A model generated the notes under the pieces. The model was not told the origin of the DNA, searched no databases, and was given only the letters and a program-made list of their open reading frames with translations. From Bacteroidales bacterium (GTDB taxonomy: Bacteria > Bacteroidota > Bacteroidia > Bacteroidales > JAIPAP01), in the NCBI GenBank assembly GCA_021740045.1, contig JAIPAP010000009.1, positions 1 through 51,166 on the forward strand: DNA of 51,166 nucleotides, in the 5' to 3' direction. Positions 2,470 through 35,851 of this stretch are shown piece after piece (the stretch's first letter is position 1; the number at the start of each line of letters is the position of its first letter). A program made the position numbers and the translations under genes.

Positions 2470-3258
2470 TTAAATCATTTCTATCAAATTGTTTTTTATC
2501 AATTCATAAGCCTGATTTTGGCTGTATTCCACACCGGGTCGTAGTAAAGCATAAATGTCACCTTTAAAATCCGGGTCTTGCAGTTTTTCTTCCAGGTTGA
2601 GTATAAATTCTTTTTGTGTAGGTTGCTTCTCTACCGAAAAAGCCATGTAATTTTTATAAGACGCAATCACTTTTTTAATATCCAACTCAATATTTGTAAG
2701 GGCATGGTACAGGTCAAATAAGTCTCTTCCTTTTCTGCGTTGATAAAGTGCACGCAGCTTGGTGCCAAGCATTTCTTCGGCTTCAAATGAAATGATTTTA
2801 GCAGAGCCACGTGCCCATGAGTTTTCAATGCTATGCTTGACCTCTTTGTATCCCAAAACCGAAAAATGTTCTCTGCAATTGATCTCAATTTTCATGCGCA
2901 GTTTTATTATCGGTGGTATTTCTGATTCAAAACGATAGACTAATGTGTTGTTGTTTGCTTTTTGCTTTACCGATGGTTTGCTCATAAACTTCAGTTGCTT
3001 TCTGAGTTCGGATAGGGTATCTTTTATTGGTTCCGGTTTAATTTGAACCAGGTCAATATCTTCAGAATAGCGCACTTGCGGTTTCAGAAAGAGCTTGTGC
3101 AAGGCCGTACCACCCCTGAATGCCAATCGTTCTTGCAAGAAAGGGTTAGAATACAATTCCAGTAATGTTTTCTCAATAATAAGGTCTTGTTCCACCTGTG
3201 CATCTTCCGGCCAAGGTGCAAAAGCTTTCCATTCTTCTATGTATCGTTTTGGCACCAT
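2470..3258 (-). CDS. abiEii: AbiEii-type nucleotidyltransferase toxin
   Basis: This 262-residue protein is a nucleotidyltransferase of the AbiEii/AbiGii family, the toxin of type IV-like AbiE toxin-antitoxin and abortive infection systems; characterised members transfer nucleotides to tRNA or bind GTP. The active-site signature is visible as RGGTALHK (about residues 48-55) followed by RYSEDIDL (63-70), giving the GG(T/S)-x-DxD pattern. The later block TKLRALYQRRKGRDLFDLYH is typical of the family. Length is normal. Its ATG overlaps the stop of the antitoxin gene by one base (TAATG), so translation should be coupled and the antitoxin made first. The toxin assignment is firm; activity against phage is inferred. 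Confidence 0.88.
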   Translation of the reverse strand: MVPKRYIEEWKAFAPWPEDAQVEQDLIIEKTLLELYSNPFLQERLAFRGGTALHKLFLKPQVRYSEDIDLVQIKPEPIKDTLSELRKQLKFMSKPSVKQKANNNTLVYRFESEIPPIIKLRMKIEINCREHFSVLGYKEVKHSIENSWARGSAKIISFEAEEMLGTKLRALYQRRKGRDLFDLYHALTNIELDIKKVIASYKNYMAFSVEKQPTQKEFILNLEEKLQDPDFKGDIYALLRPGVEYSQNQAYELIKNNLIEMI

Positions 3259-4061
3259 TATAAGTCGATCGTAATGTTTTCAATTATTTTCCATCTTTTA
3301 TTTACCGAACTGGTTTTTCCTTTGTGTGTGAGTGAAAGTGGGACTTCTTTTGGTTTTTCACCTATTACCCTGTTAAGGGAGTTTACAAGAGATTCATTGC
3401 CCAATATGTCAAGCAAATACCCTAAGCGTTGAATGGTAGGTGTGTTTTGTGTTTTGGCTGATTTGGACAGAAGTGAGGGCTTCATAATCTCGGTTAAATC
3501 TTCGAGGATAGGCATTATACGGTTCAGTCCCCCAATCCGTTTGTGAAACCTTACAAGATCGATAGCCGTGAGTTCAGGAGAAGAAACCTTAAGATAGCCT
3601 GACTGGGTTTTCTTTTCAATAATTAAGTCTGAGGGCAAGTTTGTTTTCGTATAGTAGCTGATGTGCAGCTTTTCGTTTTTAATATTTCGAAGAGGCGGTT
3701 TTTTGGTCACAACCTGAAGTTCCATAGGTTGCTGGTGTCCGGCTCCCTGGAGTGCAGCTGCCGAGAAAAACCCAACGTAATACACTCTCTTTAGGAATCT
3801 CATCATATCATCAATGAAAAGAGTGGGAGGAATCATGCCCCTGTTTGAATACTGGGGCGGAATAATTACATAAAACTCTTTCCGCACTTGCGCCAGGTAA
3901 TGCTTGCGCTTTAGCCGGTAAATATTCTGCAATATGGCCTTTTCCGATACACTAAAGTGATTTCTGAGTTCCCCTAAAGTTACTGAATACACTCCTTTCG
4001 CCTGTCTTTCTCTCAAGTAGTTATCAATGTAGTTATATGTCGATTTTTCTTTCATATTCAA
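3258..4061 (-). CDS. abiEi: AbiEi-type antitoxin / transcriptional autoregulator
   Basis: This 267-residue protein is encoded immediately upstream of the AbiEii toxin, as in AbiE operons. The first 70 residues form a winged helix-turn-helix (VYSVTLGELRNHFSVSEKAILQNIYRLKRKHYL). They are followed by the conserved antitoxin body (YYVGFFSAAALQGAGHQQP and SSPELTAIDLVRFHKRIGGL). Known AbiEi antitoxins neutralise the toxin without stable binding and repress their own promoter through inverted repeats. A perfect 6-3-6 palindrome and a -7 element lie just upstream, which fits autorepression. ATG at 4061 is used; MKEK at 4055 is an alternative. Confidence 0.87.
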   Translation of the reverse strand: MNMKEKSTYNYIDNYLRERQAKGVYSVTLGELRNHFSVSEKAILQNIYRLKRKHYLAQVRKEFYVIIPPQYSNRGMIPPTLFIDDMMRFLKRVYYVGFFSAAALQGAGHQQPMELQVVTKKPPLRNIKNEKLHISYYTKTNLPSDLIIEKKTQSGYLKVSSPELTAIDLVRFHKRIGGLNRIMPILEDLTEIMKPSLLSKSAKTQNTPTIQRLGYLLDILGNESLVNSLNRVIGEKPKEVPLSLTHKGKTSSVNKRWKIIENITIDL

Positions 4062-26729: not shown

Positions 26730-27075
26730 CTATTAATAAACAATCCGAATCATGTTTGTTTTGCCCTATGGTTCGGATAATAAATTCAGCATTATACGTT
26801 TAACCCATAGCAATGGGAAAAAGTTTTCAAGAGCGCAAGCCAATAACAATACAGCAAGTTGTTTCATATTATTCATTAATGAAAGATACTAATACCATTG
26901 CCTTTGAGCACTAAAATACATATTTCGGAGGACTTTGGCGAAAATATGCCGAAATTTTTCCATCGGATATATTGAAATATACACAAATATTTTATTTTTG
27001 CAGTCGCTTAGCGCGGATAGCAGCAGCAAACGCGCATGAGAGCCGATGTTCTTTTACATACGATTTTAAAACAAT
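26730..27075. other. Intergenic region ahead of the tRNA-Leu array
   Basis: No gene is seen. The region holds the array promoter (26972-27000) and, at 27029-27054, a short remnant reading ACGCGCATGAGAGCC then GATGTTCTT. It resembles the D-arm and anticodon-arm part of tRNA-Leu(GAG) with its core deleted. Confidence 0.5.
26972..27000 (+). promoter_or_regulatory. Promoter of the tRNA-Leu array
   Basis: TTG (26972-26974) and TATTTTTG (26993-27000), 18 bp apart, fit the Bacteroidota promoter. Transcription would start near 27006 and cross the whole array. No internal promoter is obvious. Confidence 0.6.
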
Positions 27076-27206
27076 GCCCAGGTGGCGGAACTGCCCCGAA
27101 AAACCAGAAATTTTTAATTTCATAGTTTTTCGAGGGTCCTCGAAATGAAGCAAAATCACAGATTTTGATCATTTCGGGAGTAGACGCGCATTGGGATCAT
27201 CGTTCT
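27076..27206 (+). pseudogene. tRNA-Leu 5' part split by the 86-bp hairpin element (copy 1)
   Basis: Bases 27076-27093 equal the first 18 bases of the intact tRNA-Leu(GAG) gene at 27229. The 86-bp insert 27094-27179 follows. The tRNA resumes at 27180 (GTAGACGCGC) but decays at once into ATTGGGATCAT and CGTTCTT. The T-arm and acceptor 3' strand are absent, so it cannot make tRNA. Confidence 0.75.
27094..27179 (+). repeat. 86-bp double-hairpin element, copy 1
   Basis: It begins CCCCGAAAAAC and ends CATTTCGGGA. It folds as two adjacent hairpins, each with an outer stem, an internal loop and an inner stem. It is inserted between the two G residues of the D-loop (AACTG / GTAGAC), the same point as copies 2 and 3. 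Confidence 0.8.
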
Positions 27207-27228
27207 TAAAAAATATACTAATAAAAAT

Positions 27229-27312
27229 GCCCAGGTGGCGGAACTGGTAGACGCGCATGGTTGAGGGCCATGTTCCCGCTAGGGAGTGCAAGTTCGATTC
27301 TTGTCCTGGGCA
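27229..27312 (+). tRNA. tRNA-Leu (anticodon GAG)
   Basis: An 84-base intact tRNA. The acceptor stem is GCCCAGG with CCTGGGC, the D-arm GCG...CGC with GG in the loop. The anticodon stem CATGG/CCATG holds the loop TTGAGGG, giving GAG. The long variable arm CCC-GCTA-GGG is typical of leucine tRNA, and the T-arm has TTCGATT. CCA is not encoded. It reads Leu CUU/CUC codons. Confidence 0.95.
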
Positions 27313-27322
27313 CTATGTTGAT

Positions 27323-27402
27323 CCCGGGTAAGCAAGATTTTTACGCTATGACCAAAGGGTCCTCGAAATCTAATAAAATTAAAGATTTTGAGCATCCCGG
27401 GA
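27323..27402 (+). repeat. Diverged relative of the hairpin element (d1)
   Basis: It begins CCCGGG and ends ATCCCGGGA, then GTAGACACAC. It shares TCCTCGAAAT and AGATTTTGA-CAT with the 86-bp element but differs in the first half. The terminal complementarity is kept with other bases (CCCGGG with CCCGGG instead of CCCCGAAA with TTTCGGG). It lies directly behind the intact tRNA-Leu(GAG). Confidence 0.55.
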
Positions 27403-27440
27403 GTAGACACACTGGTCAGGTATACGTTCTCAAAAGTTTA

Positions 27441-27610
27441 GCCCAGATGGCGGAACTGCCCCGAAAAACCAGAAATTTTCAATTTCATAGTTTTTCGTGG
27501 GTCCTCGAAATGAAGCAAAATCATAGATTTTGACCATTTCGGGAGTAGACGCGCATGGTTGAGGGCCATGTTCCCGCTAGGGAGTGCAAGTTCGATTCTT
27601 GTCCTGGGCA
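27441..27610 (+). pseudogene. Split, chimeric tRNA-Leu(GAG) carrying the 86-bp insert (copy 2)
   Basis: Apart from the insert 27459-27544 this is a full tRNA-Leu: 5' part 27441-27458, 3' part 27545-27610 identical to the intact GAG gene. The first seven bases are GCCCAGA, as in the CAG tRNA, while the 3' acceptor strand is that of the GAG tRNA. Position 7 is therefore an A-C mismatch. With the D-loop split it is probably not a working tRNA unless the insert is removed or tolerated. Confidence 0.75.
27459..27544 (+). repeat. 86-bp double-hairpin element, copy 2
   Basis: Hairpin 1 pairs CGAAAAAC with GTTTTTCG and, inside, GAAATT with AATTTC around a TTC loop. Hairpin 2 pairs CGAAATG with CATTTCG and, inside, CAAAATC with GATTTTG around an ATA loop. 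CCC/GGG and TCC/GGA extend the two outer stems past a single bulged T each. Confidence 0.85.
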
Positions 27611-27620
27611 CTATGTTGAT

Positions 27621-27701
27621 CCCGGGTAAGCGAGATCTTTACGTTATGACCAAAGGGGGCCTCGAAATCTAATAAAATTAAAGATTTTGAGCATCCCGGG
27701 A
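27621..27701 (+). repeat. Diverged relative of the hairpin element (d2)
   Basis: Near-identical to d1 at an offset of 298-299 bp, with a one-base insertion (GGGGG instead of GGGT) and a few substitutions. It shows that a segment of about 299 bp was duplicated in tandem. Confidence 0.55.
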
Positions 27702-27739
27702 GTAGACACACTGGTCAGGTATACGTTCTCAAAAGTTTA

Positions 27740-27871
27740 GCTCAGATGGCGGAACTGCCCCGAAAAACCAGAAATTTTCAATTTCATAGTTTTTCGTGGG
27801 TCCTCGAAATGAAGCAAAATCACAGATTTTGACCATTTCGGGAGTAGACGCGCTGGTCCATAATCGTTCTT
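27740..27871 (+). pseudogene. tRNA-Leu 5' part split by the 86-bp element (copy 3)
   Basis: Bases 27740-27757 are a tRNA-Leu 5' end with one change (GCTCAG). The insert is 27758-27843. The tRNA resumes with GTAGACGCGCTGGT, matching the CAG tRNA, then degenerates to CCATAATCGTTCTT. There is no T-arm or 3' acceptor strand. Confidence 0.75.
27758..27843 (+). repeat. 86-bp double-hairpin element, copy 3
   Basis: Same length, ends, folding and D-loop insertion point as copies 1 and 2. It differs from copy 2 by about one base (CAC instead of CAT in the loop region). Confidence 0.8.
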
Positions 27872-27886
27872 AATTTTATCGCTAAT

Positions 27887-27970
27887 GCCCAGATGGCGGA
27901 ATTGGTAGACGCGCTGGTTTCAGGGACCAGTGGCCGCAAGGCCGTGCAGGTTCGACCCCTGTTCTGGGCA
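27887..27970 (+). tRNA. tRNA-Leu (anticodon CAG)
   Basis: An 84-base intact tRNA. The acceptor is GCCCAGA with TCTGGGC. The anticodon stem CTGGT/ACCAG holds TTCAGGG, giving CAG. The variable arm is GGCC-GCAA-GGCC and the T-arm has TTCGACC. CCA is not encoded. It decodes Leu CUG. Confidence 0.95.
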
Positions 27971-27985
27971 CAATTAGAAATTATT

Positions 27986-28026
27986 ATCCCCTAATTATCA
28001 ATGTTACGATTAATGGGGGATTTTTT
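27986..28026 (+). terminator. Terminator after the tRNA-Leu array
   Basis: ATCCCC and GGGGAT pair, strengthened by TAAT and ATTA. The stem is followed by a run of T (TTTTTT). It lies 15 bp after the last tRNA and would end the array transcript. Confidence 0.7.
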
Positions 28027-28225
28027 GTTGCGGTCAACTGGTAATACACAAAGAATCGTCTAATTCCCAGATAAACTTAATATAAAGAAATCCTCAATAT
28101 AGGGTTTAATCTTTTTATTCCTGCTTTTTTTAAAATGAAACGCAAAACTTTTTCAATTTCGGATATGCTTATTCCAATGGTTTTTCATATCTTTATGACA
28201 TTAATTTTAACTATTCTAAAAGAAT

Positions 28226-31200
28226 ATGATCAGTAAATCTCAATCAGTAACCCATTCATCAATACGAGATAATCGAGTTCGCGGTACAGTTGGCCAGTAC
28301 TTGAAGAAAAACATAATTGTTAACTCGAACTTAGCGATTGTTTCAGCATATTTCACGATATATGCATATAGCCAGTTAAAAGCTGAATTAGACAGCATAA
28401 ACCATCTGGATTTTCTTTTTGGCGAACCAACTTTCTTAAGGTCAATAGATCCTGGCAAAACTAATAAAAGAGACTTCAAAATTGAGGATGATAATATTAT
28501 CATACCTTTAGAAAAGCGTTTGATCCAAAAATCTATCGCTAAAGATTGCTCAAATTGGATTAAAGAGAAGGTAAGCATAAAATCCATGGTCAAGCCAAAT
28601 TTCTTACATGGAAAAATGTACCACATTACACAAGAAAGTGGAGTTGAAAAAGCAATAACCGGTAGTTCAAATTTTACTGTTAAAGGCCTGGGGCTTGGAG
28701 GAAAACCCAATATTGAGCTTAACTTAGTTGTTGATAGTGACAGGGATAGAATTGATTTGAAAAATTGGTTTTGTGAATTGTGGGGCAACAAGGAAGGGCT
28801 TGTTGAAGATGTAAAAGATGCAGTGCATAAATACCTGGAGCAGCTTTATGTTGAAAATGAACCTGAATTCATTTATTACAAAACCCTTTATCACCTTTTT
28901 GAGAAATACCTTGATGAACAGGCAAAAGGAGGTTTACTTACCGAACAAACAGGATTCTTTGAAAGTGAGATCTGGAATATGCTTTATGAATTTCAGAAAG
29001 ATGGAGTAAAAGGGGCAATTAATAAGATTTTAAAACACAATGGTTGTGTTATTGCTGATAGCGTGGGTCTTGGTAAAACATTTGAGGCTCTTGCCATTAT
29101 CCGATATTTTGAAATGCTGAATTATCGTGTCTTGGTATTATGTCCCAAAAAACTTTCCAGCAATTGGACAATATATCAGTCTTTTCATGGAAGTAGTTTA
29201 AATCCATTCAAAAAAGACAAATTTAACTATACAGTATTATACCATACCGACTTAGGAAGAGTGAGCGGACATTCTAAAGCCAATGGAATTGACCTCGAAA
29301 ATTTCAATTGGGGAGCGTATGATCTTATTGTAATCGATGAAAGCCATAACTTTAAAGGTAATCCATTAGAGAGAGTTACAGAGGATGGAACATCAAAAAT
29401 GAACCGACCAAAGTGGTTAATGGAAAAAATTATCAAGGAAGGTATACAAACCAAAGTTTTATTACTTTCTGCAACTCCTGTTAACAATAACCTTAAAGAT
29501 TTAAGAAACCAGATTTCATTAATCACTGAGGGAAATAATAGTGCTTTATACGATGCCACCGGCATTAAAGACATTGCACTTTCTTTGAAGAATGCACAAA
29601 CTTTGTTTACGAATTGGGCCGATCCAAAAAAAACTAAAGAAAGGTCAATTAAGCAGTTGATCGAAAGACTGGATTCTTCTTTTTTTAAATTGCTGGATGA
29701 ACTTACAATTGCGCGTAGCAGAAAACATATTAAAAGCTTTTATAAAGCAGAACAGGAAGTTGGGAAATTTCCCATAAGAAATAAACCGCTTTCTATCTAT
29801 TCGAATATTGATTTAAAAGATCGTTTTTATACGTATGATGAACTAAACAAAATCATTCTACAATATAAACTCTCGGTTTATAATCCTTCTGCATATGTGC
29901 TTAAAGGAAAACAATCAAAATATGAAGAATTGGCGAAAACATCCGGAGTGCTTGCTTTCAAACAAAGCGATCGTGAGCATTTTTTGATTGGAATGATGAA
30001 AGTTAACTTTCTTAAAAGATTAGAGAGTTCTATTGAATCATTTGAAATCTCACTGGACAGGACTATACAGAAAATTGAAAAGCTTGAGAAGAAAATTAGG
30101 GAGTTTCAGCAACTGGAGCCAAACTCAATGGAGGAAAGCCTTAAAGATATGGAACCCGATGAAGATGAAAGAGACGAAAACGAAGACGATCAGGAACAAT
30201 GGGAAGTGGGTAAAAAACTGAAATTTGACTTGGCTGATCTTGATCTGGAGACATGGCTCGAAGACCTCGAAGCTGACAGGCATGCTTTGAATAAACTATA
30301 TAATTTCTCCGTGGCGGTTTCTCCTGATAGAGATGCAAAGTTGAAAGAATTACAGAAACTTATAAAAAAGAAAGTTCAAAATCCCGTTAATTCTGATAAC
30401 AAGAAAATAATAGTTTTTACTGCATTTGCTGATACTGCAACTTATCTTTATGATTGCCTTAAAGATTGGTGCCAACAAGAGCTAGATATAAATATCGCAA
30501 TAGTTGCCGGATCAATAACCAAGACTACTTTTGGTAAAAATGATTTTGGCCACATTCTTACAAATTTTTCACCTGTTTCAAAGAACCGCGATAAAATCCT
30601 TTCAATGCCTGATGAAAATGAGATCGACTTGTTGATTGCAACAGACTGCATAAGTGAAGGACAAAACCTTCAGGATTGTGATTATTTGATCAATTATGAT
30701 ATTCATTGGAATCCGGTTCGCATCATACAGCGCTTTGGCCGTATTGACAGATTGGGAAGTAAAAATGAAAGTATTCAACTGGTTAATTTCTGGCCTACAA
30801 AAGATCTGGATAATTACATCAACCTCAAAGAAAGAGTGGAGGCCAGAATGGCTTTGGTAGATGTAACAGCTACAGCAGATGACAATGTTTTGTCAACCGA
30901 TCAGATAAATGACTTGATTGAAGATGACCTGAAATACCGGAACAAACAATTAAAGAAGCTGAAAAAAGAGATACTTGATCTGGAGGATATGGATGAAAGC
31001 ATCTCCTTAACAGATTTCACCCTGGATGATTTCCGAATAGAATTGATGAATTACATTGAAAACAATAAGGAGAAATTGGAAAATGCCCCTTTTGGATTGT
31101 ATGCTGTTGTCCCATCACCCTCAAATAACTATTCGAAACAATTGGACTTATTTAAATTTACCGAATCTGAGCGGGAAATCATAAAACCAGGAGTGGTATT

Positions 31201-31594
31201 TTGTCTAAAGCAAAAGGGGGATACTGAAGGTAATGAACAAATAAACCCGTTGCAACCATATTTCTTGGTATACATCCGGGATGATGGACAGGTGCGCTTT
31301 AATTATACTCAAGCTAAACACATTCTGGAGATTTACCGTTTGATGTGTGCCGGGGAAACAAAACCTTTTGAAGAACTTTGTGATTTGTTCAATGCAGAAA
31401 CCAACAATGGTGAAAAAATGGACAATTATACAGAGCTCTTGGGTAAAGCCATAGAACAAATTTCAAGGGTCTTTGAAAAAAGAAGCAACCAGAAAATCAC
31501 CGGTAATGACCGTGGGGCTGTGTTAATTCCCAAGAAAAAGCGTGTAAAGAATATGGATAATTTTGAATTGGTAACATGGTTGGTGATAAAATAA
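28226..31594 (+). CDS. PLD-nuclease/SNF2-type helicase fusion
   Basis: The 1122-residue cytoplasmic protein has two parts. Residues about 20-200 form a phospholipase-D-like domain with one HxK motif (FLHGKMYH, His128, Lys130) and the partner GSSNFT (146-151). Such single domains dimerise to make a nuclease site. From about 245 there is an SF2/SNF2 motor: Walker A DSVGLGKT (278-285), DESH (371-374), SATPVNN (415-421), and the C-lobe motifs ATDCISEGQNLQ and QRFGRIDRLG (about 800-840). A very acidic linker sits near 645. With the methyltransferase two genes on, it is the likely ATP-driven restriction subunit of a defence system. The coding sequence is AT-rich compared with the core genes. Confidence 0.85.
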   Translation: MISKSQSVTHSSIRDNRVRGTVGQYLKKNIIVNSNLAIVSAYFTIYAYSQLKAELDSINHLDFLFGEPTFLRSIDPGKTNKRDFKIEDDNIIIPLEKRLIQKSIAKDCSNWIKEKVSIKSMVKPNFLHGKMYHITQESGVEKAITGSSNFTVKGLGLGGKPNIELNLVVDSDRDRIDLKNWFCELWGNKEGLVEDVKDAVHKYLEQLYVENEPEFIYYKTLYHLFEKYLDEQAKGGLLTEQTGFFESEIWNMLYEFQKDGVKGAINKILKHNGCVIADSVGLGKTFEALAIIRYFEMLNYRVLVLCPKKLSSNWTIYQSFHGSSLNPFKKDKFNYTVLYHTDLGRVSGHSKANGIDLENFNWGAYDLIVIDESHNFKGNPLERVTEDGTSKMNRPKWLMEKIIKEGIQTKVLLLSATPVNNNLKDLRNQISLITEGNNSALYDATGIKDIALSLKNAQTLFTNWADPKKTKERSIKQLIERLDSSFFKLLDELTIARSRKHIKSFYKAEQEVGKFPIRNKPLSIYSNIDLKDRFYTYDELNKIILQYKLSVYNPSAYVLKGKQSKYEELAKTSGVLAFKQSDREHFLIGMMKVNFLKRLESSIESFEISLDRTIQKIEKLEKKIREFQQLEPNSMEESLKDMEPDEDERDENEDDQEQWEVGKKLKFDLADLDLETWLEDLEADRHALNKLYNFSVAVSPDRDAKLKELQKLIKKKVQNPVNSDNKKIIVFTAFADTATYLYDCLKDWCQQELDINIAIVAGSITKTTFGKNDFGHILTNFSPVSKNRDKILSMPDENEIDLLIATDCISEGQNLQDCDYLINYDIHWNPVRIIQRFGRIDRLGSKNESIQLVNFWPTKDLDNYINLKERVEARMALVDVTATADDNVLSTDQINDLIEDDLKYRNKQLKKLKKEILDLEDMDESISLTDFTLDDFRIELMNYIENNKEKLENAPFGLYAVVPSPSNNYSKQLDLFKFTESEREIIKPGVVFCLKQKGDTEGNEQINPLQPYFLVYIRDDGQVRFNYTQAKHILEIYRLMCAGETKPFEELCDLFNAETNNGEKMDNYTELLGKAIEQISRVFEKRSNQKITGNDRGAVLIPKKKRVKNMDNFELVTWLVIK

Positions 31595-31601
31595 ATTATA
31601 A

Positions 31602-32429
31602 ATGAAAAAATCATTAACAACCATAAACGTAAAAGATACACAGGTTTCTCTATTAAGAAGAGCAGATGCAGATTATATTTCCCTGACTGACATTGCCAAA
31701 TACAGAAACCGGGTTGAACCTTTTTCGATCATCAATAACTGGATGCGCACAAGAAGCACCATTGAATTTATTGGCTTGTGGGAAACGTTAAACAACCCTG
31801 TTTTTAAACCTATCGAATTCGAGAGGTTTAGAATTGAATCGGGCAGCAATTACTTTGTTCTGTCTCCTAAACGTTGGATAGAATCAACAAATGCAAAGGG
31901 TATCATTGTAAAATCAGGCAGGTATGGCGGTACATTTGCCCATAAGGATATAGCATTCGAGTTTGCTTCCTGGATTTCATCTGAATTCAAATTATACCTC
32001 ATAACTGAGTTCCAGCGACTAAAGGAAGAAGAAACAGACCGCCTCAAATTGGAATGGGACCTGCAACGGACCATTTCTAAAGTTAACTATCGCATCCATA
32101 CCGATGCCATCAAAGAAAACCTCATCCCGCCTGAGCTCAGCAAAAACCAAATTAACTTTGTGTATGCCAATGAAGCTGATATGCTGAACATGGCCATGTT
32201 TGGAAAAACAGCCAAACAGTGGCGGGATGAAAATCCCGATGCTCAGGGCAACATACGCGATCAGGCCACCATAGAGCAATTGGTGGTACTTTCAAACCTG
32301 GAGAGTATCAATGCCGTCCTGATCAGGCAAGAAATCCCGCAAAACCAACGCCTCGAACAATTAAACCAAATTGCGATCACACAAATGAAATCCCTGTTGG
32401 GGAACAAGAATCTGAAAAAGCTGAAATAG
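31602..32429 (+). CDS. KilA-N domain protein
   Basis: The 275-residue protein has an N-terminal KilA-N domain (about 5-145), a DNA-binding fold common in phage and large-virus proteins. It shows DADYISLTDIAKYRN, NWMRTRSTIEFIGLWE and the closing block GGTFAHKDIAFEFASWISSEFKLYLI. The C-terminal half is helical (YRIHTDAIKENLIPPELSKNQ, then a region rich in Asn/Gln). It starts 7 bp after the helicase and ends 2 bp before the methyltransferase, so the three genes are one operon. It may be a regulator or a DNA-recognition partner. The role is unknown. Confidence 0.85.
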   Translation: MKKSLTTINVKDTQVSLLRRADADYISLTDIAKYRNRVEPFSIINNWMRTRSTIEFIGLWETLNNPVFKPIEFERFRIESGSNYFVLSPKRWIESTNAKGIIVKSGRYGGTFAHKDIAFEFASWISSEFKLYLITEFQRLKEEETDRLKLEWDLQRTISKVNYRIHTDAIKENLIPPELSKNQINFVYANEADMLNMAMFGKTAKQWRDENPDAQGNIRDQATIEQLVVLSNLESINAVLIRQEIPQNQRLEQLNQIAITQMKSLLGNKNLKKLK

Positions 32430-32431
32430 AG

Positions 32432-35400
32432 ATGCCGGACAACAACCTAATAAGAACCAGGATTAAAGATGCCATTAAAAGATTTACCAGTGGTAATCTC
32501 ACTGAAAATGCATTGAACCTTTTCAAGGTATTGGGCTATAATAAGGAACGGCAGGCACCGCTGCAGGAAAAGACCTTTGAAGAGTTTAAGGATGATTTCA
32601 TTGAAGCACAAGAGTTTAATGAAGATAAAGCCCTGGTAAATGATTGGAGGTATGTTGACCTGCTTTTCCAGTTAACAAAAGAGGAAATCGCAAAACAAAG
32701 CTCCCTTTTCGATACCAGACAGGTGGACAACACTATCATAGAAACTTATTTGTTTTTTACCATCGACCTTACAGAAAATTCTTACACCCGAACAGCGCTT
32801 TCAAATATCACCCGGGAAATTAACAAACTGTTTCCCATGCCGGTAATGATTTTATTCAAGCATGGAGATACACTTACTTTATCAGTTATAAATCGCAGGT
32901 TACATAAACGTGATCAAACAAAAGATGTGCTTGAAAAGGTCACCCAGATAAAGGATATCAAAACAGACAATCCACATCGCGCACATATTGAAATCCTGTT
33001 TGACTTATCTTTTGAAGAGTTAAAACGTAAACATAATTTCACCAATTTTGTAGAACTGCATAATGCCTGGCAAAAAACACTTGATATTAAGGAGCTCAAT
33101 AAACAGTTCTATCAGAAATTATTTAACTGGTATCTATGGACGCTCAAAGAGGTTAAATTCCCACAAACTCGTCCTGAGAAAGATCTGCTTGATAATAAGG
33201 TCCATCAAAGCGAATCGCTGATCAGGCTTCTTACCAGGATGTTGTTTGTTTGGTTCATGAAAGAAAAGGGTTTGATCAATCATGAGTTGTTTAACCAAAA
33301 CCACCTGGTATCCATTTTAAAAGATTTTGAAGGTAAAAAAGGTGAAAACACCATTTTTTACAAAGCAATTCTGCAAAACCTCTTTTTCGCAACGTTGAAC
33401 AAACCCATTGTAAAAAGAAAAATAATTGATAAAGGCTTTAATCCCAAAGAATACGGTGACCCCTTGGTATATCGCTTTGATGAACTTTTTAAGCATCCAG
33501 AAAAGCTCTTGGATTATTTCCGAAACATTCCATTCCTGAACGGAGGGCTTTTTGAATGTCTTGACCAACCGAAAAGCAATGAGAATCCTGAAGAGATCAG
33601 GCTGGATGGCTTTTCAACTAAAAAATCCAAGCAGGTTCATTTACCTGATAAATATTTTTTTGGTGAACATACAGGTATTGACCTGAGTGAAGATTATGAT
33701 GATAAAAAGAAGAAGAATGTTACTGTTTTTGGTCTAATTGATATTTTAGATCAATACAAGTTTACAGTAGAGGAAAGCACACCCGTAGATGAAGAAATTG
33801 CCCTCGATCCTGAATTGCTTGGGAAGGTTTTTGAAAATCTTCTGGCCAGCTATAATCCGGAAACCAAGACAACAGCCCGTAAAAAAACCGGCAGCTTTTA
33901 TACACCACGTGAAATTGTAAACTATATGGTGGATGAAAGCCTGATTGCTTACCTGAAAAATACTGTTGATGACGAGGAAAGACTGCGTAAGCTATTTTCA
34001 TATAGTCACAAGGAAGAAGAAAATCCATTCAATCAGCAAGAGAGCAAACAACTTGTTGCAGCAATTGATGAATGTAAGATAATTGACCCTGCCTGTGGTT
34101 CCGGAGCTTTTCCAATGGGCGCCCTCCAAAAACTCACCCATATCTTGCATAAATTGGACCCGGAAAACAAAATTTGGTTTGATATGGTAATCAATAATCT
34201 GCCTCACTACATGCAGCCGGAAGCCAGGAAAAAGCTTCAAAAGGAAAACTGGAATTATATACGTAAGTTGGGAATTATACAGCAATGCATTTATGGAGTG
34301 GATATACAACCTATTGCTATACAAATAGCCAAATTGCGGTTTTTTATTGCTTTACTCGTAGATCAACAAGCAAAACCTGATGAACACAACTTAGGATATG
34401 AACCTTTGCCCAACCTGGATTTTAAGCTGGTTGCCGCCAACACATTGATCTCCGCCCCACAGAATGAAGCAATTGAAGCTTATGCAAAAGATGCTTTGGA
34501 TAGTTTTGAGAAACTAACCGATGAGTATTTCTCCGCTATAAATGAACGAAAAGCTGAAATAAAGGATGAGATTAAAAAGAATACCAACAAGATAGTTAAT
34601 GCTAATCGCGTAGTGATTAACCAGTGGTTAGACAAAATAAGGCGGGAAAGCAATTCTGTAAGCGCAGCAAAACAAAAGAAAATGCAGCAGCAAATGGTCA
34701 CCTTTCAAAGGGACCTTGAGCGCTGGAATACTTTCCGTAATATTTACAAAAATGAATCTGTGGCCTTTTTTGAGATAAAATATTTCTTTCCTCAAATTAA
34801 GGAGGGTTTTGATATTGTTTTTGGAAATCCTCCCTATGGCGCTAAAGTAAATGCAGTTGACAAGCCTTATTTTCAAAGAATGTACACCTCAGCTAAAACC
34901 ATAGCCGGAGTTCAAAAAGGCTCGTTAGACACATATACACTATTTATTGAATTAGGTCATTCTTTGTGTAAGTCAAATGCCAATCTGCATTATATAGTTC
35001 CTATATCAATCACGTCAAGTGACTCTGCTACTGGAGTTCATAAATTACTTGAAGATACTTGTAGCTTAATTAAGATTTCTTCTTATGCTGTTCGTCCAGA
35101 GCCAGTTTTTGAAAATGCAGTCGTGAATACAAGCATTATTTTTTTCAAAAAAGATAATATTTCTGTACAAAGTATTCTCTCTACCAAAATGTATAGAAAA
35201 AAGGGTGTTATAAATTTGAGGCATTTAGTTGAAAATCTTGAATTCATTGATGTGTCTGATGTCAAGCTAATAGGCAGATACCCCAAAATTAGTTTAGACA
35301 TTGAAAAGAAGATTTTAAAAAAAATATTAAACCAAAAAACAAAGATTGGTGATTGTCTAAAAACAAAAGGTAATAAAATCTATTATAGAACTTCAGGTGG

Positions 35401-35851
35401 CCGATATTTTAAAGTAATCACAAACTATTCTACCGGCTCTACTAAAGAAAGGTATTTGGTTCTTGATGAGAATATTGCTGACTCTATTGGGGCTATACTA
35501 AGTAGTAATTTATATTTTTGGTTTTATCAAATTTTTTCTAATAATCTTGACCTTAAGACATATGAGATAGTATCATTTGGCCTGCCATTAGATAAGCTAA
35601 GTGAAAATATTAATGAAAAGCTTGTAGAAATTTACTCAAAATATTTAAAAGATATTGAAAAAAACGCAAATGTTAGACAAACCACTAAATACAAAAATAT
35701 TGAATCATTTAAAGAATATAAAATTGGTAAATCAAAACCAATAATTGATCAAATAGATGACATTATTGGACAATTGTATGGTTTGAATAAAACAGAAGTT
35801 GATTTCATAAAGAATTATGAAGTTCAATTCAGGCTGCAATATGAAGAATAA
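32432..35851 (+). CDS. Eco57I-type N6-adenine DNA methyltransferase
   Basis: The 1139-residue protein modifies adenine in DNA using S-adenosylmethionine. The N-terminal 450 residues are a helical extension. The methyltransferase core starts with GSFYTPREIVNYMVDESL and has motif I DPACGSGAF (about 551) and motif IV GNPPYGAK (about 798). The last 300 residues (from about 830) are the presumed target-recognition part and are visibly richer in A and T than the core. No PD-(D/E)xK nuclease motif was recognised, so cutting is probably the job of the PLD-helicase. A single polypeptide methyltransferase of this size is typical of type IIG, ISP or BREX/PglX-like proteins; I cannot say which. Confidence 0.87.
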   Translation: MPDNNLIRTRIKDAIKRFTSGNLTENALNLFKVLGYNKERQAPLQEKTFEEFKDDFIEAQEFNEDKALVNDWRYVDLLFQLTKEEIAKQSSLFDTRQVDNTIIETYLFFTIDLTENSYTRTALSNITREINKLFPMPVMILFKHGDTLTLSVINRRLHKRDQTKDVLEKVTQIKDIKTDNPHRAHIEILFDLSFEELKRKHNFTNFVELHNAWQKTLDIKELNKQFYQKLFNWYLWTLKEVKFPQTRPEKDLLDNKVHQSESLIRLLTRMLFVWFMKEKGLINHELFNQNHLVSILKDFEGKKGENTIFYKAILQNLFFATLNKPIVKRKIIDKGFNPKEYGDPLVYRFDELFKHPEKLLDYFRNIPFLNGGLFECLDQPKSNENPEEIRLDGFSTKKSKQVHLPDKYFFGEHTGIDLSEDYDDKKKKNVTVFGLIDILDQYKFTVEESTPVDEEIALDPELLGKVFENLLASYNPETKTTARKKTGSFYTPREIVNYMVDESLIAYLKNTVDDEERLRKLFSYSHKEEENPFNQQESKQLVAAIDECKIIDPACGSGAFPMGALQKLTHILHKLDPENKIWFDMVINNLPHYMQPEARKKLQKENWNYIRKLGIIQQCIYGVDIQPIAIQIAKLRFFIALLVDQQAKPDEHNLGYEPLPNLDFKLVAANTLISAPQNEAIEAYAKDALDSFEKLTDEYFSAINERKAEIKDEIKKNTNKIVNANRVVINQWLDKIRRESNSVSAAKQKKMQQQMVTFQRDLERWNTFRNIYKNESVAFFEIKYFFPQIKEGFDIVFGNPPYGAKVNAVDKPYFQRMYTSAKTIAGVQKGSLDTYTLFIELGHSLCKSNANLHYIVPISITSSDSATGVHKLLEDTCSLIKISSYAVRPEPVFENAVVNTSIIFFKKDNISVQSILSTKMYRKKGVINLRHLVENLEFIDVSDVKLIGRYPKISLDIEKKILKKILNQKTKIGDCLKTKGNKIYYRTSGGRYFKVITNYSTGSTKERYLVLDENIADSIGAILSSNLYFWFYQIFSNNLDLKTYEIVSFGLPLDKLSENINEKLVEIYSKYLKDIEKNANVRQTTKYKNIESFKEYKIGKSKPIIDQIDDIIGQLYGLNKTEVDFIKNYEVQFRLQYEE

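Follow-up and report, generated by a model that had tools for sequence, protein, structure and literature searches.

The window analysed here, a stretch of 51,166 nt from a Bacteroidales draft genome, carries between 27076 and 27971 an array of complete and partial tRNA-Leu genes, in which ARAGORN and Rfam found only two uninterrupted ones, tRNA-Leu(GAG) and tRNA-Leu(CAG) (Table 1). Three copies of an 86-bp sequence, which we call the plug, are present in this array; copy 2 shares 95% and copy 3 97% identity with copy 1. All three are located between G18 and G19 of tRNA-Leu 5′ parts (AACTG/GTAGAC), and since the plug begins right after AACTG and stops right before GTAGAC, the insertion is clean, with no base lost or duplicated. 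Folded as single-stranded DNA, the plug forms two adjacent hairpins with an energy of −25 kcal/mol (z = −8.5; none of 200 shuffled sequences equalled it). These data agree with the preliminary description, which had reported the same insert at one D-loop site starting at 27094, 27459 and 27758, a fold of two adjacent hairpins and two uninterrupted tRNA-Leu genes. Its statement that the inserts lie in tRNA-Leu copies holds for all three sites, with the restriction that copy 2 alone interrupts an otherwise complete tRNA-Leu. Copies 1 and 3 interrupt 5′ copies that are truncated after the D-arm and are followed by a linker of 35–40 nt and the next tRNA; the 18 nt of the truncated copy in unit A match the start of tRNA-Leu(GAG) exactly.

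The array contains a tandem duplication in which segments 27247–27554 and 27545–27853 are about 98% identical. Its left edge is the exact D-loop site and its right edge falls within the 10 nt (GTAGACGCGC) 3′ of the plug, which places the breakpoint of the array-enlarging duplication at the site of plug insertion. The same duplication accounts for the otherwise complete interrupted tRNA-Leu, and a decayed double hairpin is found both after the intact GAG gene and after the interrupted gene. Ahead of the array, TATTTTTG fits TAnnTTTG, the consensus of the Bacteroidota −7 box, and the same motif also precedes units at three loci in other genomes. No integrase gene was found in the array and no GIY-YIG gene in the window. 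The next gene (28226–31594) encodes an HKD+Snf2 helicase. Together with genes for a PDC-S22 family protein and a type IIG restriction-modification-like protein, all of them PADLOC matches, it forms a candidate operon for anti-phage defence at 28226–35851, directly downstream of the array. An AbiEii/AbiEi toxin–antitoxin pair is located on the minus strand at 2470–4061.

Table 1. Features of the tRNA-Leu array and its borders (positions in the window)
Feature	Position	Strand	Basis
Bacteroidota-type −7 promoter box TATTTTTG, ahead of array	26993–27000	+	sequence reading
Truncated tRNA-Leu 5′ copy, unit A (acceptor 5′ strand and D-arm 5′ strand)	27076–27093	+	sequence comparison
Double-hairpin plug copy 1 (CCCCG...CGAGGG/TCCTCG...CGGGA), D-loop	27094–27179	+	search and folding
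D-arm 3′ strand and linker with boxA-like GTTCTTAA, up to intact tRNA	27180–27228	+	
Intact tRNA-Leu(GAG)	27229–27313	+	ARAGORN, Rfam
Tandem duplication of about 299 bp, shared 10-nt GTAGACGCGC	27247–27853	+	repeat comparison
Decayed double hairpin (TCCCGGG...CCCGGGA), then GTAGACACAC	27322–27402	+	sequence reading; recurs at +299
tRNA-Leu 5′ part, unit C	27441–27458	+	
Double-hairpin plug copy 2	27459–27544	+	
Remainder of tRNA-Leu(GAG), fused to plugged 5′ part via tandem duplication	27545–27612	+	
Second decayed double hairpin, duplicate of 27322–27402	27620–27701	+	
Truncated tRNA-Leu 5′ copy, unit D	27740–27757	+	
Double-hairpin plug copy 3	27758–27843	+	
D-arm 3′ strand and linker with boxA-like GTTCTTAA	27844–27886	+	
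Intact tRNA-Leu(CAG), array end	27887–27971	+	ARAGORN, Rfam
Terminator-like hairpin, then T-run	27986–28028	+	sequence reading

When the 86-bp sequence was used as a query against relatives, 6 of 99 genomes matched, and the places that we read were mostly beside tRNA-Leu, tRNA-Ala or tRNA-Gly genes. From the shared features we derived the pattern YSCCG-arm-CGWGSR/TCCWCG-arm-CGGGA; an initial general pattern with TAGAGC after the insert had been too narrow and gave false positives. Of the 393 genomes searched within the order, 21 (about 5%) contained the new pattern, with up to 14 matches each, and the reversed control pattern gave a single match in all 393. None of about 100 genomes of the same class outside the order was positive, and most matches in a scan farther out in the phylum look like chance GC-rich ones, two genomes excepted. 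The feet of the first hairpin covary: in 108 elements filtered for palindromic arms only, the pairs TCC/GGA, TGC/GCA and CCC/GGG occurred 51, 39 and 17 times, with one exception. Arm length and arm sequence are variable, so that conservation concerns the palindromic structure and its fixed core. In Rfam only the two uninterrupted tRNAs of the array were matched; the insert is covered by no Rfam family, and coverage by one, which the preliminary description had named as a refutation, is thereby ruled out. The stretch of tRNA plus plug had no match in either a plasmid or a phage collection. Near-identical copies of the double hairpin occur at several places of one genome, and it is also found outside tRNAs, within arrays of degenerate 7-nt repeats (e.g. 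CAACTTT, GGAACCA) at seven loci and others, which suggests that the plug may be an independent palindrome recruited by a tRNA-associated system. At two tRNA-fMet loci the double hairpin lies in the D-loop in reversed orientation.

We then considered the 56 non-redundant copies with a recognisable tRNA copy. The plug occupied the D-loop in 46 and the T-loop in 10. In 43 of the 46 D-loop cases an intact tRNA of matching type stood downstream; two of the other three are those of the window array, where the script paired the upstream GAG gene though the CAG gene follows. T-loop plugs were all inserted between G53 and T54, and all ten had the intact tRNA upstream. The insertion point within the D-loop varied, being after position 15, 18, 19 or slightly later. 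The general layout is thus a D-loop-plugged 5′ half followed by an intact tRNA, or an intact tRNA followed by a T-loop-plugged 3′ half; at one locus both kinds of plugged half are present. More than a dozen tRNA types are affected. The preliminary description had offered a small palindromic element with tRNA-Leu as its target, and this comes closest of its readings, except that the insertions are not specific to tRNA-Leu, use T-loops as well and involve unrelated palindromes too.

The same anatomy was seen when GTDB genomes were scanned for a D-loop joined to the element. Among the 64 loci recovered, 48 matches were followed by an intact tRNA, which usually shares its 5′ end with the plugged half. 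These loci belong mostly to Bacteroidales and other Bacteroidota, including Draconibacterium orientale FH5T, an isolate with a complete genome. Two tRNA-Val loci in Magasanikbacteria (Patescibacteria MAGs) have the same D-loop-plug anatomy, which suggests horizontal spread between phyla; a few matches in Duganella, Rubrobacter and Cellulomonas look like chance.

In the host of the window, 6 of 24 further tRNA genes tested (Met, Tyr, Val, Gly, Asp and Arg) are accompanied by partial copies, all with a palindrome in a loop or in the anticodon arm. Some form tandem half-copies, namely five 53-bp units at Val and four units at Tyr in which a hairpin replaces the anticodon arm. Plugged half-copies of this kind were recorded at six loci of the host genome, on contig C36 and on other contigs. 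Palindromes unrelated to the 86-bp element fill the same tRNA loops in the host and in its relatives.

Reading the spacers between plugged half and intact tRNA revealed small GIY-YIG ORFs at many loci. We listed GIY-YIG domains regardless of tRNAs in 28 genomes, 16 of which had been picked for holding the element. A tRNA gene was found no farther than 800 nt from 41 of 67 distinct small GIY-YIG ORFs, and every one of these 41 shares the strand of the tRNA; stretches this close to a tRNA gene make up roughly 1.6% of the host genome (36 tRNA genes in 3.9 Mb), and about 2% would be expected by chance. About 37 of these ORFs also have a partial copy of that tRNA, as a rule on the side that faces away from the tRNA gene, and in many of these copies a palindrome occupies the D-loop, the T-loop or the anticodon arm. 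Such palindromes are often unrelated to the 86-bp element, for example CCTGCCTGCCGGCAGGCAGG or a single TCCCG...CGGGA hairpin. The end of the GIY-YIG ORF can reach into the tRNA. None of the tRNA-Leu loci examined has a GIY-YIG gene. An Rfam scan of GIY-YIG loci with no tRNA nearby yielded one further RNA gene only, a tmRNA, directly after which three GIY-YIG genes stand in tandem; tmRNA thus seems to be a further target.

The encoded proteins are 80–130 aa long and contain no known DNA-binding domain. Four tRNA-linked ones matched PF01541 with E-values of 5e-14 to 4e-18, and the aligned family conserves the Y of the first motif as well as Y.G, R, H and E positions. The closest solved relatives by sequence are of the UPF0213 type (PDB 1zg2, 1ywl), to which similarity is weak. 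In a tree built on few columns, so that single branches are uncertain, the tRNA-linked proteins form groups apart from most small GIY-YIG proteins located elsewhere. When this tree was labelled by tRNA target, 19 label changes were counted vs 34.4 in shuffles, none of 200 shuffles being as low. Four tRNA-Ala nucleases from four bacterial families fall into one group, and tRNA-Asn and tRNA-Arg nucleases group likewise. This indirect evidence points to target-specific nucleases that are sorted by tRNA across bacterial families. The GIY-YIG identity between two loci was not accepted as horizontal transfer, because the whole 1755-bp overlap of their contigs is 100% identical, which indicates cross-binning; the contigs come from the host genome and from a draft genome of a different family.

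Taken together, these results make it probable, in our judgement, that the plugged tRNA copies and the GIY-YIG genes linked to them belong to a family of tRNA-targeting selfish or mobile elements. The plugged half-copies would be the outer ends of its units, and a full-length unit would hold a free-standing GIY-YIG gene between the plugged half-copy and the intact tRNA. Where the tRNA gene is split in the D-loop, the original 5′ half would be pushed upstream and plugged; where it is split in the T-loop, the original 3′ half would be pushed downstream and plugged. The unit would supply a replacement for the displaced end, and an intact tRNA would therefore always remain. Features expected of GIY-YIG homing elements are present, namely a catalytic domain, occupied and empty alleles and, by indirect evidence, target specificity. 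The window array is best read as a nuclease-less, tandemly amplified form of this element, which may be mobilised in trans.

The main alternative is a REPIN-like palindrome that is moved by a RAYT (TnpA-REP, Y1) transposase via single-stranded DNA and lands in tRNA loops, the tRNA halves being decayed tandem tRNA genes. Such an element would be expected to consist of a bulged pair of hairpins in inverted orientation, to be dispersed outside tRNAs as well and to occur in near-identical copies within a genome, as is the case for the plug with its copies in 7-nt repeats, and RAYT subclass 2.6 of Bacteroidetes has atypical secondary structures at its flanks (PMC6006769). The plug resembles REP, BIME and REPIN sequences (PMC3733652, PMC6006769) in being short and dispersed and in combining two imperfect, inverted hairpins that have a bulge near the foot; unlike these, it lies mostly inside tRNA loops, with no GTAG/GGAG or CGTC foot tag seen and no link to a RAYT gene. 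Its feet pair TCC, TGC or CCC with GGA, GCA or GGG, as opposed to the GTAG/GGAG of REP sequences, and the GTAG that follows the insert in the window is part of tRNA-Leu, other sites having TTGG, CTAG or TTCG. None of 30 Y1 loci had the element within about 1.5 kb, weak similarity being seen at two only, and Y1 genes are present in 7 of 12 element-negative genomes; a Y1 transposase as the driver, examined in 30 genomes, was rejected as unsupported. A RAYT origin would also leave unexplained the fixed polarity, the half-copies, the GIY-YIG genes and the unrelated palindromes in the same loops, and we consider it unlikely.

We judge it less likely still that the plugged half tRNAs are functional leader or trailer RNAs that act in cis on the folding, processing or antitermination of tRNA transcripts. 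Several observations would suit such an RNA: almost every unit has the orientation of its tRNA, the D-stem persists around the plug, the hairpin feet covary, and the one interrupted copy that is otherwise complete can still adopt a cloverleaf whose D-arm is enlarged. BoxA-like motifs occurred in 8 of 37 linkers (1.2 expected) and in 13 of 37 leaders (2.9 expected); this enrichment is only moderate and the motifs are probably copied leader, so that boxA was discarded as the core function. Data from one genus showed that the tRNA-His gene is empty in two genomes and bears a GIY-YIG plus double-hairpin unit in a third, and that two more genomes have ORF-less units with other hairpins. Such presence and absence at the same tRNA among species of one genus speaks against a general function, as do the occurrence of the double hairpin in only about 5% of the genomes of the order, the use of both upstream and downstream positions, the unrelated plug sequences and the reversed copies in tRNA-fMet D-loops. 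The idea, put forward in the preliminary description, of a structured RNA built from a tRNA half captures the anatomy and misses the GIY-YIG genes and the genus-level presence and absence.

An intron-like insert that is spliced or excised from the transcript to give a joined tRNA, another of the early suggestions, is very improbable. The copy at 27441–27612, which is complete except for the insert and folds around it, would suit this explanation; it is, however, accounted for by the tandem duplication, and nearly all interrupted copies are half tRNAs that lack one acceptor strand and adjoin an intact gene of the same type. The insertion point also varies within the D-loop, and unlike group I introns, which are ribozymes found in tRNA anticodon loops, the insert is 86 bp long, lies in a D- or T-loop and matches no Rfam intron. 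Chance does not explain the insert either, and an assembly or binning artefact, which the preliminary description had named as a possible refutation, is in substance excluded: the window does belong to a draft genome of 161 contigs and cross-binning occurs, as the 1755-bp overlap shows, but the element recurs elsewhere in the genome, the same anatomy is present in many genomes, among them the complete genome of the D. orientale isolate, and the copies within the array have diverged from each other.

For the tRNA-targeting GIY-YIG element we propose, tentatively, a cycle in which the plug serves as protection. The nuclease would cut an unplugged tRNA gene at the D- or T-loop, and recombinational repair would copy the unit into the cut gene. 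The plug would then shield the outer half from renewed cutting, and repeated cutting or recombination at the intact copy could give rise to tandem arrays. Since the intact tRNA within the unit keeps the supposed cut site, self-cleavage must be avoided in some way. A recognition site that spans the flank would spare the unit, as the inner tRNA has a new flank and the outer copy has the plug.

Islands and satellites that integrate into tRNA genes by means of tyrosine integrases carry a piece of the tRNA that restores the interrupted gene. The units described here share this carried tRNA piece and differ from such islands in having no integrase, a split point in the D- or T-loop, a size of 50–450 bp and a palindrome at the junction. 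Free-standing GIY-YIG homing nucleases beside tRNAs are already known from phages, and in the literature on tRNA-associated GIY-YIG elements the only near case that we found for bacteria was SegB; the portion of a 2006 GIY-YIG survey accessible to us mentions no association with tRNA genes. According to the available part of the report on phage SegB (PMC13096335), this free-standing, tRNA-associated GIY-YIG nuclease is implicated in cleavage inside tRNA sequences. It drives the tandem amplification of a tRNA segment whose breakpoints fall in short stretches of homology shared by the 5′ end of a tRNA and the 3′ end of the nuclease gene. As far as these sources go, SegB and other GIY-YIG homing endonucleases of T-even phages resemble our elements in being small free-standing nucleases that adjoin tRNA genes. 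Unlike SegB, the genes found here are chromosomal in Bacteroidota, one of them being at a tmRNA, and they are accompanied by half-tRNA copies with plugs, by a palindrome at the outer junction and by derivatives that lack the nuclease; for SegB, that part of the report (PMC13096335) describes none of these features. Rickettsia palindromic elements, in the excerpt available to us (PMC3733652), are like the plug in being palindromes inserted inside genes, and neither duplication or rebuilding of the host gene nor a linked nuclease is described there. In the literature searched we found no description of tRNA splitting with loop plugs, and an element family that combines the two is apparently undescribed.

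In its widest form our proposal would be of a new class of selfish element, whose GIY-YIG nucleases cut the elbow loops of tRNA and tmRNA genes, whose carried fragment rebuilds the tRNA, whose palindromic plugs immunise the displaced halves, and whose units without a nuclease, mobilised in trans, occupy tRNA loci throughout the genomes of Bacteroidota carriers and extend to Patescibacteria. We put this forward with some reserve; it would mean that a dozen or more of the host's 36 tRNA genes have been filled by nuclease-less units. tRNA genes are the best known landing sites of mobile DNA, which enters the 3′ end by way of integrases and the anticodon by way of introns. Splitting at the D- or T-loop that leaves an intact gene and a plugged remnant would, if true, be a new kind of parasitism of essential RNA genes that the host survives. 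The units account for a class of tRNA fragments that annotation tools miss, and those at Ala, Asn, Arg, Pro, His and other tRNAs offer natural pairs of nuclease and target for testing the specificity of minimal GIY-YIG proteins. Such units may also reveal how arrays of tRNA genes grow.
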